A DNA stretch of 64,000 bases, taken from the NCBI RefSeq assembly GCF_030463535.1, contig NC_132878.1, positions 98,574,266-98,638,265 on the forward strand, in the 5' to 3' direction. The notes under the pieces were generated by a model. The model saw only the letters and a program-made list of their open reading frames with translations. It had not been told where the DNA came from and ran no database searches. The DNA comes from Salminus brasiliensis (lineage: Eukaryota; Chordata; Actinopteri; Characiformes; Bryconidae). The position numbers and the translations under genes were made by a program. Below, piece after piece: positions 49,573 to 55,100 of this stretch; the stretch's first letter is position 1; each line of letters starts with the position of its first letter.

Positions 49573-52176
49573 TTACAGGAAGGTCCACACCTCCACAGCC
49601 TGGATTCTAAAGTCCTGTTGGGGTGAGAGAGGCTGGTTCCGGAAAGTGCTGCAGGAAAACGTGGAGCCGCGGCAGAGATCCGCATCCAGCCACAAACCGA
49701 ACGGCCCCCTGGGGTCAGAACAACAGCGGTGCATTGTATTATACCTTCAGTAAATAGGATAATTACTGGAACTACACTTGCTGGCCACTTTACTGGAAAC
49801 ACCCTACCTTGGGCTTCCACTCACTAGCCACTTTACTGGAAACACACCATAAAGGTGGGGTGCTAAGACACTCTGATCATAAGCAGGGGATCTACAGGGT
49901 CTTACTGAACACCAGCAATGTGGAGCTGCAGGGGAGCAGTTTCTGATAAAGTGGCCATTGTGTGTATTTCCTGGAAATGAGCAGCAGATTCAGTGAAACG
50001 GTTAAAACCGTCAGAAACTCACCCTCCTCCTCCCATCTGCAGAGAATCGAGGAACCCGCGCACGAAATAGGAGTTTTCTCCAGTCCAGCAGAACGTCTGC
50101 AAGAGAAAAGAACCTCCATCAGACGTCCGGTCAGAGGAACAGCACGGTTCCACACAGCACGATGATGATGATAATGATGATGATGAAGAACGTACCTTAA
50201 ACTCTGGGTCGAAGGTGAAGAGGAATGTTTCTCCCGTTCCGTAGCAGCTGTCACTCACTCTGAACGGGTCGGAGGAGAACGCACCAAACACCTGCACACA
50301 GTGAAATACAGTTATATACACAGAAATATATACACGTACATTGATATACACTTATATATATACACACACTGATATACACTTATATATATACACACACTGA
50401 TATACACTTATATATATACACACTGATGTACACTTATATATATACACACACTGATATACACTTATATATATACACACACTGATATACACTTATATATATA
50501 CACACACTGATATACACTTATATATATACACACACTGATATACACTTATATATATGAACTTATATATATATATATATTTATATATGCACTGATATATTCT
50601 TATTTATATACACACTGATGTACACTTATATATATATACACACTGATGTACACTTATATATATATACACACTGATGTACACTTATATATATACACACACT
50701 GATATACACTTATATATATACACACACTGATATACACTTATATATATACACACTGATGTACACTTATATATATACACACACTGATATACACTTATATATA
50801 TACACACACTGATATACACTTATATATATACACACACTGATATACACTTATATATATACACACACTGATATACACTTATATATATGAACTTATATATATA
50901 TATATATTTATATATGCACTGATATATTCTTATTTATATACACACTGATATAGACACACACACACATGCTGACCTGGTTGTGCATGTCCTTTATGAGCAG
51001 CAGGACGGGTCGGTCTATCGCTGCAGTTTTGCGGTACAGTGTTCTCAGGCTGGTGCCGTGTTCCGCTGTGCTGTAGACCAGGTCCCACACATTGCACTGG
51101 ACACGAGGGGGCAGACGGCTGGCCAACTGTAGACACACACCAACACACACACACACACACACACATTAACATCCATTTTACCTTCAACAGGTGTGCAGGC
51201 TTTAAACTTTATTATTACCCTTCATTACCCATTTCACCTACTCTTACTGTTCATTACAGCATGGGTCATTCAGTATCCACTATGAACTATCCAGTGTCCA
51301 CTATGAATTATTCAGTATCCACTATGAATTATTCACTATCCACTATGAATTATTCAGTATCCACTATGAACTATCCAGTGTCCACTATGAATTATTCAGT
51401 ATCCACTATGAATTATTCACTATCCACTATGAATTATTCAGTATCTACTATGAATGATTCAGTATCTACTATGAATTACTCAGTATCCACTATGAATTAT
51501 TCAGTATCCAGTATGAATTACTCAGTATCCACTATGAATTACTCAGTATCCACTATGGATTATTCAGTATCTACTATGAATTATTCAGTATCCACTATGA
51601 ATTATTCAGTATCTACTATGAATTATTCAGTATCCACTATGAATTATTCAGTATCCACTATGAATTATTTAGTATCCACTATGAATTATTCAGTATCTAC
51701 TACAGTATATAATGAGGATGGTCACTCACGCTCTCGATGTGATGGTCCTGCAAGATGTAGCTTTTCTGGTTTAAGGCAGGGAGTGTGTCTTCAGCCTCCT
51801 CATCCTCAGACGTGCACACACTCCAGGAGCTGCACACACTCCGCGAGCTGCACACACTCCGTGAACTGCACACACTCCGCGAGCTGCACACACTCCGTGA
51901 ACTGCACACACTCTGTGAGCTGCACACACTCCGGGAGCACTCAGACTTTCGCACAGTGATGATCTGCAGAAGGAGAACAGACTGATGTTAGTTGTGATTC
52001 AGTATTCAGCAGACAGAACCTCTCAGGTGCATGTCGGTTCTTTATGTTCTCACAGAAATGCTCTAAGTCCACACAGTCAGATCTGACCGGCTGCTGCAGA
52101 ACCTCACCTCTACATAGGGTTCCTCACAGCCATTAGAAACATACAGGATTTGAATGTTCTCCAGTATGGGCCTCAT
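49573..52176 (-). CDS. NCOA7-like short isoform from internal alternative first exon (253 aa)
   Basis: The alternative first coding exon is 52176-52108 (69 nt, 23 codons). It ends at a good donor (GAG/GTGAGG) in phase 0 and splices in frame to the shared exon at 51963, then to the remaining TLDc exons, for 253 aa. It encodes [16 protein letters not shown] followed by CEEPYVE, joined to IITVRKSE. From memory, mammalian NCOA7-AS, the interferon-inducible 219-aa form, also has a short N-terminus of the type MR...IQI.Y....EEP.V joined to IITV. The extra length comes from the six-residue repeat in the next exon. IRF-core motifs, CCAAT boxes and a TATA-like box lie upstream. The exon and splice are directly supported by sequence; interferon regulation is inferred from the family. 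Confidence 0.72.
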
Positions 52177-55100
52177 GTTAGCACCGGTTCTGTGTGTCTT
52201 TGTGTGCTCTGCTGTGAGTGGAGGGAGCTCAGCTCCTCTATTTATCCACGCCCCTCGAGGCCCTCATTGGCCTGCTGAGTGTTTATTCCCTCAGGGGCTG
52301 CCAGGATTGGCTGCTCTGCCAGTTTCATTTCTTGTAAAGAGAGGGGAAGGGAGGATTCTGAGCATGAAGTGTAGAGGAAATGAATCCTAATAAGGGCAGT
52401 GAAAGTGAGGCCGTTTCGGTTCCCGCTGACTGGAAGTCATTTAACCACAGTCTGCAACGCAGAGAACCCCCCAAATAGGGGACTAACCCCCAAATAGAAC
52501 CAAACCCAGCGGAGTGATCAGACACTGGACCCCATTCTCATCAGCATCTGCAGAGCCGCGACGCCCACTTTCAGACAACGGGCTGAGCTCTATCAGAATC
52601 CCTGTATTACAGCTAATACCACTGACATTACTAATGCAGTTATTACCTTTATTAATGCAGTTATTCCTTTTATTAATGCAGTTCATACCCTTATTAATGC
52701 AGTTATTACCTTTATTAATGCAGTTATTACCTTTATTAATGCAGTTATTCCTTTATTAATGCAGTTATTACCTTTATTAATGCAGTTATTCCTTTTATTA
52801 ATGCAGTTCATACCCTTATTAATGCAGTTATTACCTTTATTAATGCAGTTATTCCTTTATTAATGCAGTTATTACATTTATTAATGCAGTTATTACCTTT
52901 ATTAATGCAGTTATTCCTTTTATTAATGCAGTTCATACCCTTATTAATGCAGTTATTACCTTTATTAATGCAGTTATTCCTTTTATTAATGCAGTTCATA
53001 CCCTTATTAATGCAGTTATTACCTTTATTAATGCAGTTATTCCTTTTATTAATGCAGTTCATACCCTTATTAATGCAGTTATTACCTTTATTAATGCAGT
53101 TATTCCTTTTATTAATGCAGTTCATACCCTTATTAATGCAGTTATTCCTTTTATTAATGCAGTTCATACCCTTATTAATGCAGTTATTACCTTTATTAAT
53201 GCAGTTATTCCTTTTATTAATGCAGTTCATACCCTTATTAATGCAGTTATTACCTTTATTAATGCAGTTATTCCTTTTATTAATGCAGTTATTACCTTTA
53301 TTAATGCAGTTATTCCTTTTATTAATGCAGTTCATACCCTTATTAATGCAGTTATTCCTTTTATTAATGCAGTTCATACCATTATTAATGCAGTTATTAC
53401 CTTTATTAATGCAGTTATTACCTTTATTAATGCAGTTATTCCTTTTATTAATGCAGTTCATACCCTTATTAATGCAGTTATTATCTTTATTAATGTAGTT
53501 ATTACCGTAATTAATGCAGTTATTACCTTTATTAGTGCACTTATTAACCTTATTAATGTAGTTATTACTCTTATTAATGCAGTTATTACCTTTATTAATG
53601 CAGTTATGAACTATTAATACTGTAAAATGATGCTAGCTTATTAGCTTTATTAATGCTAATATAACTATACATGCAAGTTATAAAAATATGAATGCTATAT
53701 AACTATAATGTAATGATATCTCATTAGGAATGCTAGTTCATTAATTTTCACTCAGCACTAACAATGATATGATGAACATCTACACATATTCATACATTAG
53801 AAGAAAGTGGGGAAGTTTGATTGTTTATCGTGTAGATTAGAGGATGTTTGTAAACTGAATAGATTCACTGTGTTTCTTTGCTGATGACGTGGATCTGGGA
53901 CAGTTTTAGATTCTAGAGGGAGGAAATTTTAAATGTCGTATTAAATATGTTATTATCTGTCAAATTCAATAAAATCAGGGGTGCTCAGACTTTTGCACAA
54001 CACCTTAAAGTCCTGTTTTGGAGAAAAGGAATGAAGACACATGGAGAGCAGTGATCTTTCCTTCACTCACCTCCCAGTCTTTAGGCCCGGCTCCACTGAG
54101 CAAGCTGTCAATCATAGCCAGCTCCTGCTTGTTCACCACCAGGAAGCTCTGCTTTCGGCCGTGTTTGGTGTAGAGGTCCGGAGACCACTGGACGAAGAAG
54201 GTGTAGAGGTGGTCAACCCTGGAGAAGAGCATAAACATGAAGACCATACAAATACAAGCGGGCTGTGACGTCACTGCTTAGAGGGTGGCTGAAATCCCAG
54301 TAATGCTCTGTACAGGTGCAGGAGCACAGTACCTGCACAGGGTCGTGTATACAGGTAAATCAGACACCCCATAATAACCTTTTTTTGGACAGGATTAAAG
54401 AGGTTTCTTCAGATGTGTGAGTTTAGTTAGATTACTTCTCTCAGTGAAGCTCAAACACAGATTTGTTATAAAGTGTGATGTGTGTGAGGTGTGTGATGTG
54501 TGTGAGGTGTGTGAGGTGTGTGAGGTGTTTACGGGGTGTTATAACTTTTCCACAGGACAGTAAATGTGAAAGTAGGTTATAGTTGAGTGGAAATTGTGTA
54601 ATCTGCATATTCCCCCTGTGTGTTCACACAGCCAGCGGTGGAGCTCTGAAGCTGCTGGCCTGCAACCAAGTAACACCCACACACACATTCCACCCAGCTG
54701 AGGAAATAACCGACACCCTTACAATCTCTGCACACCAATATGTAAACACTAATAAATATTGATCATTATCAATCGATATTATGTGTATTGAAGTCTCTCA
54801 TCTGATCAGTGTCTGAAATCATGACCAACTAAAATTTACTTACTTTAACTAGCTAATGCTAAAGCTAACCCCAGTAACTGTATCCATATAAATACTTTAA
54901 CTAGCTAATGCTAAAGCTAACCCTGCTAACTCTATCCATATACTTTAACTAGCTAATGCTAAAGCTAACCCTGCTAACTCTATCCGTATACTTTAACTAG
55001 CTAATGCTAAAGCTAACCCTGCTAACTCTATCCGTATACTTTAACTAGCTAATGCTAAAGCTAACCCTGCTAACTCTATCCATATACTTTAACTAGCTAA

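Follow-up and report, generated by a model that had tools for sequence, protein, structure and literature searches.

We report an alternative first exon in a minus-strand gene of Salminus brasiliensis, probably a fish copy of NCOA7, located in a window of 64,000 nt (NC_132878.1 of assembly GCF_030463535.1, positions 98,574,266 to 98,638,265; all coordinates below are window positions). By its sequence, a 69-nt exon of 23 codons (exon S, 52108..52176, minus strand) is a real, conserved alternative first coding exon, homologous to the unique first exon of the mammalian short isoform NCOA7-B, also known as NCOA7-AS. Exon S and the promoter elements preceding it are likely to constitute an internal alternative start of the gene and the counterpart of the NCOA7-B/NCOA7-AS start, most probably responsive to interferon or to interferon regulatory factors (IRFs), that yields a short form carrying the TLDc domain. 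In human cells, NCOA7-AS has been studied as an interferon-induced inhibitor of entry. According to published work, type I interferon induces NCOA7-AS by way of an internal promoter, and the protein interacts with the vacuolar-type ATPase (V-ATPase) (PMC8329711, PMC8005160); in the human short form, 25 unique residues precede the last five long-form exons (PMC8648102).

An initial annotation of this DNA had placed at 52108-52176 an exon with its own ATG and an in-phase donor into an exon encoding IITVRK, and we found all of these features at those positions on the minus strand. Exon S is a single open frame beginning with ATG and ending with GAG at the donor GAG/GTGAGG. Splice sites were ranked among all minus-strand GTs or AGs by use of a weight matrix with approximate weights. 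In this ranking the exon S donor is 15th of 4374 GTs, and the acceptor of the first shared exon (exon C, 51730..51963, minus strand), which begins with IITVRK, is 8th of 5245 AGs. Exon S is in phase with exon C, and the frame remains open across exons C, D (50974..51126), E (50196..50291), F (50023..50096) and G (49573..49708), all on the minus strand, up to the stop codon in exon G. The predicted splicing of these six exons gives a protein of 253 amino acids, in which the gene model and matches to PDB and Pfam assign exons D to G to the TLDc domain. In this model the short form shares its last five exons with a long form and joins it at the IITV junction, in agreement with the description of the human isoform (PMC8648102). 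In the longer transcript, the gene model and the splice ranking place exon B (54071..54218, minus strand), which ends with DWE, before the same IITV exon.

The homology of exon S to the mammalian exon is supported by comparisons with two PDB chains. A 32-residue query composed of the exon S peptide and IITVRKSEC returned only two matches in PDB at E <=10, 9iae_A (E 0.26) and 7uzj_T (E 0.49), values that are not significant alone; both are NCOA7 short N-termini, the expected targets. Chain 7uzj_T, which comprises 221 residues and is mammalian, presumably from rat, bears the short isoform from residue 1, and its residues 9-40 align with the exon S/IITV stretch of the window protein. Compared with 7uzj_T residues 9-25, the exon S peptide is the top-scoring stop-free 17-mer over all six frames of the window (score 38; runner-up 31), and none of 200000 residue shuffles reached this score. 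The intron containing exon S scored 41 against the NCOA7 peptide of the 9iae chain, a value attained by 0 of 300 shuffled introns (maximum 29) and 0 of 1000 shuffled queries (maximum 31). We take the 9iae peptide to be human because it contains PDEEPF, which is also encoded by a published guide RNA directed against the human exon: according to our own reading, the reverse strand of this guide reads P-D-E-E-P-F, as does the 9iae chain. The initial annotation had proposed both an alignment of the 23-residue exon to NCOA7 short isoforms and a shared IITV junction. The alignment gave identities of 8/17 to the 9iae peptide (12/24 with the addition of seven residues from exon C) and 7/17 to 7uzj_T, in both cases above shuffled sequences, and the homology at this junction is thereby upheld. 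Strands have been predicted at residues 10-15 and 24-28 of the human N terminus (PMC8329711). Their positions match those of two conserved blocks, IQI-Y and V-IIT, which read IQILY and VEIITV in the window peptide, with the second strand spanning the splice junction.

The 253-residue protein matched the Pfam family TLD at 3.4e-47. Its best PDB match was 7uzj_T, named 'Nuclear receptor coactivator 7B' (E 2.2e-77), with the zebrafish protein 4acj (E 1.4e-57) and mEAK-7 (1.2e-18) lower among the 11 matches in all. Over 165 aligned residues, the window protein has 104 identities to 7uzj_T and 87 to 4acj, and the latter two share 101. Based on these comparisons, in which 4acj was the only vertebrate OXR protein and which were made without mammalian OXR1 or fish NCOA7, the predicted protein is nearer to NCOA7 than to 4acj, yet a divergent copy, and the host gene is probably a fish copy of NCOA7. 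The zebrafish TLDc structure 4acj is termed OXR2 in most of the literature and Ncoa7 in one review; with identities of 101/165 to NCOA7B and 87/165 to the window protein, either name could apply. Six conserved TLDc residues, G93, S95, G123, G174, L204 and E216, have been mutated in mouse Ncoa7, and the mutants were assayed for V-ATPase pull-down and for protection (PMC8608904, PMC4742741). The reported effects differ, with only partial disruption in pull-downs for S817, L926 and E938, and G123A still reduced oxidant levels (same sources). All six residues are identical in the window protein, at positions 125, 127, 155, 206, 236 and 248. Within exon C, an 18-bp x 7 tandem repeat (51813-51938) lies in frame in the linker ahead of TLDc and encodes a Cys/Ser-rich (SRSVCS)n stretch, which is common to the long and short forms; mammalian 7uzj has a single STCS there.

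A motif scan of the DNA upstream of exon S revealed, in order toward the ATG, GGAACCGAAACG, GGCAGTGAAAGT, AGAAATGAAACT, two CCAAT boxes and the TATA-like box GATAAATA. The IRF cores AACCGAAA (52421-52414) and AAATGAAA (52330-52323) listed in the initial annotation, as well as its two CCAAT boxes and its TATA-like box, were all recovered on the minus strand. The core AAATGAAA is contained in a site resembling the interferon-stimulated response element (ISRE), AGAAATGAAACT (52321..52332, minus strand), and AACCGAAA in the ISRE/ETS-IRF-like site GGAACCGAAACG (52412..52423, minus strand). A further ISRE-like site, GGCAGTGAAAGT, is located on the opposite strand (52395..52406, plus strand) and was absent from the earlier list. 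The distal and proximal CCAAT boxes occupy 52306..52310 and 52266..52270, and the TATA-like box 52239..52246, all on the minus strand. Transcription would start near 52215, at a C/A step located 31 nt downstream of the TATA-like box, leaving a putative 5' untranslated region at 52177..52215 (minus strand) that is overlapped by an acceptor-like AG ending at 52212.

The presence of two AANNGAAA cores in 249 bp has a P of 0.006, and that of one GRAANNGAAA in the same 249 bp a P of 0.02. Three ISRE-like 12-mers scoring >=12.2 fall within 103 bp, which none of 3000 dinucleotide shuffles of the 249 bp matched, a significance that is overstated by approximate weights and a threshold fitted post hoc to the observed scores. 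Of 31 ISRE-like sites in 34547 unmasked bases, only one other group forms a triple within 115 bp, at 12850-12862, made up of overlapping sites that are offset by 6 bp each. Among 28 minus-strand CCAAT boxes, only that at 52270 is followed by a TATA-like box 10-45 nt downstream, in a search pattern that included the observed GATAAATA variant. The motif cluster is above chance, less firmly than the peptide match. Given the exon, its promoter would rather probably be responsive to IRFs or interferon.

In the mechanism that we propose, the CCAAT boxes and the IRF-binding, ISRE-like cluster would drive the promoter, most likely in response to interferon or IRFs. The resulting mRNA, with exon S joined to the last five exons, would encode the 253-residue protein, composed of a short N-terminal hairpin followed by TLDc, and the TLDc domain is expected to bind the V-ATPase. 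This hairpin would be of a type that docks onto the PX domains of SNX5 and SNX6, with its first beta-strand and loop contributed by the exon S peptide and its second strand by the shared IITV. Binding to SNX5 could then place the short form on endosomes, where acidification would be raised and virus entry hindered. Two PDB entries, 9iae and 9igy, bear the name 'Sorting nexin-5, Nuclear receptor coactivator 7', and at the end of their chain are NCOA7 short-isoform residues ~3 to 35; judging from the molecule name, they appear to be structures of the SNX5 PX domain with an NCOA7 short-isoform peptide. The hairpins bound by SNX5 and SNX6, an ESCPE-1 cargo motif, have a hydrophobic-x-aromatic-x-hydrophobic first strand and a second strand that contains a hydrophobic residue (PMC9231623, PMC10768393). 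The window sequence reads IQILY...YVEIITV, and the mammalian sequence IQIFY...FVKIITV. That the exon S peptide docks onto SNX5 is conceivable, and we stop a little short of expecting it. Among the literature matches listed, we found no paper on an NCOA7-SNX5 complex, and the SNX5 matches listed there do not name NCOA7.

Several observations weigh against an interferon-responsive start with a docking hairpin. No canonical ISRE (GAAANNGAAA) is present in 451 bp. Taken singly, the three ISRE-like sites rank only 21st, 27th and 55th in the window, with 20 places outscoring the best of them, and the post hoc threshold mentioned above flatters the cluster. The window peptide does not cleanly fit the strict SNX5 motif: the centre of I-x-I-x-Y is aliphatic, and the last residue of I-x-Y-x-S is Ser. 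Just upstream of exon S lies, in addition, the acceptor-like AG that ends at 52212. The title of one paper links the mammalian short isoform to ovulation, and the promoter may answer to other signals. We considered three alternatives. That the likeness of a 23-codon stretch to the mammalian exon is coincidental might be argued from the shortness of the peptide and its PDB-wide E-values, but the top 17-mer of the entire window is located at exactly the predicted place and in the predicted phase. We rejected chance similarity on the basis of the three shuffling controls (0/200000, 0/300 and 0/1000), and coincidence is exceedingly improbable.

It is also unlikely, though less so by a wide measure, that exon S is a genuine NCOA7-B-type start with a tissue- or hormone-driven promoter, active for instance in ovary or kidney/ionocytes, and with incidental IRF-like sites. 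Such a promoter would be consistent with the lack of a canonical ISRE and with a possible non-interferon input from a RUNX-type TGTGGT (52449-52444) that closely precedes the ISRE-like sites. The mouse short isoform is reported to be expressed in kidney, liver, lung and spleen. By contrast, three ISRE-like sites in 103 bp (0/3000 shuffles, at the post hoc threshold) argue for interferon, as do an induction of the human isoform of >60-fold in blood cells of patients treated with interferon (IFN)-beta-1b (review PMC5614904) and the observation of the duck short isoform in infected tissue (PMC8602823). Finally, exon S might be an untranscribed relic or a cassette (poison) exon for which the AG ending at 52212 serves as acceptor. 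This acceptor (at 52211) scores 10.0 and ranks 40th of 5245, and splicing to it after exon B would introduce an in-frame TGA just ahead of the ATG and truncate the long form. Because of the same TGA, exon S has coding potential solely when it comes first in the transcript, and the ATG, frame, donor and peptide are all maintained relative to mammals. The AG coincides, moreover, with the start expected from the TATA-like box, and the core-promoter elements are in normal order. A cassette exon or relic is thus very improbable, and an internal, interferon- or IRF-responsive start remains the reading that we prefer.

Compared with NCOA7-AS/NCOA7-B (human isoform 4, mouse Ncoa7-B), the fish locus is alike in a short first coding exon, unique to this isoform, that continues into the IITV exon, in the last five exons common to the long form, in the TLDc domain with its six residues, and in the internal position of the putative promoter. 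It differs in 23 instead of 25 unique residues, in the lack of a canonical ISRE, and in a fish rather than a mammalian or avian host. The fish protein, of 253 amino acids, has a linker expanded by the Cys/Ser-rich in-frame repeat, whereas human NCOA7-AS has 219 amino acids (PMC8329711). The sister gene OXR1 also has TLDc-only products: zebrafish oxr1b has a short transcript, oxr1bx3 (PMC7598701), and in the mouse the first exon of Oxr1-C is unique to it, exon 9 is followed by exons 10 or 11 to 16, and expression is seen in cerebellum (PMC3197693). In its TLDc domain, the window protein is nearer to NCOA7B (104/165 to 7uzj_T) than to zebrafish OXR2 4acj (87/165; NCOA7B to 4acj, 101/165). TLDC2 and mEAK-7 (TLDC1) are likewise V-ATPase-binding TLDc proteins; these are separate genes that are not known to contain this hairpin exon. 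The mEAK-7 match in PDB is far weaker than that of NCOA7B (1.2e-18 versus 2.2e-77), and TLDC2 is absent from the 11 matches.

The 2008 description of Ncoa7B reportedly considered the isoform to be restricted to mammals. A short NCOA7 isoform was subsequently seen in infected duck tissue in a 2021 report, which suggested a conserved role in vertebrates (PMC8602823). The initial annotation had dated the short-isoform promoter before the split of fish and mammals. This age fits the duck report, and a homologous exon would extend the isoform to fish; the part of the claim that concerns an interferon promoter is likely, though unproven. Among the literature matches listed, which covered few subscription papers, none described a short NCOA7 isoform in fish, and the isoform may already be annotated there. 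In one fish paper, ncoa7-like is mentioned solely in a pathway table, among the differentially expressed genes (PMC9794605). The predicted exon S isoform is a deep member of the known NCOA7 short-isoform class. A conserved fish exon would date the isoform before the divergence of fish and tetrapods, so that the origin of this defence switch may lie more than 400 million years back, and it would make fish a genetic model for the short isoform. It would also show which part of the 25-residue N terminus is constrained, namely the IQI-Y...EEP[FY]V-IITV hairpin, and this constraint is a direct reason to test docking onto SNX5 and SNX6. On a bolder reading, which we consider somewhat less likely than not, the ancestor that fish share with tetrapods already had the short isoform and an IRF-responsive promoter for it. 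The first exon would then have retained a hairpin that docks onto SNX5/SNX6, with the shared IITV as its closing strand, and that recruits a TLDc domain controlling the V-ATPase to the endosomal tubules of ESCPE-1. Taken together with the TLDc-only forms of OXR1, this could suggest that an internal start ahead of the TLDc exons is older than the split of NCOA7 and OXR1.

The initial annotation further regarded the gene as a paralogue that had lost its N-terminal domains, which our results do not support. Exon A (57042..57073, minus strand) of the longer transcript, placed by the gene model and splice ranking, has a near-perfect acceptor, TTCTCTTCTTTCCAG, and because this acceptor ranks 2nd of 5245 minus-strand AGs, exon A looks internal. 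At least one exon is thus likely upstream of exon A. The window ends 6.9 kb upstream of exon A, at 64000, and the NCOA7 gene may simply continue past this edge. No LysM or GRAM domain was detected by Pfam (E <=0.01 or <=0.1) in 24 of 28 upstream minus-strand unmasked open reading frames (ORFs) of >=40 amino acids; the other four of the 28 lie at 56988-57110, 63287-63409, 63463-63585 and 63881-64000, and all shorter or repeat-masked frames were outside the scan. A match to HTH_53 (E 0.064) among the upstream ORFs was below its cut-off and was set aside. A possible third start of the gene is marked by a TATAAAAG box at 57166, with an ATG 99 nt further on from which translation would begin as MGVAYS (57042-57166). 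MGVAYS fits the N-myristoylation consensus. That exon A is a true first exon under TATAAAAG is possible and is mentioned only as an aside, given the strong acceptor before the ATG.

We identified no neighbouring gene in the 30 of 58 window ORFs of >=75 amino acids that were scanned, in which the sole family match was a reverse transcriptase, and the window contains no tRNA and no Rfam family at gathering score. This match derives from a 405-codon open frame on the minus strand (6944-8158) with RVT_1 (2.2e-29) and ALKBH8_N (5.7e-23) domains, which is probably a retroelement of the long interspersed nuclear element type. Tandem-repeat masking covers 29453 of the 64000 window bases. Four of the six introns of the long model carry a minisatellite of their own (54841-56424, 52628-53607, 51268-51702 and 50314-50952), and two more tandem arrays are located upstream, at 57644-59267 and 61113-62238.

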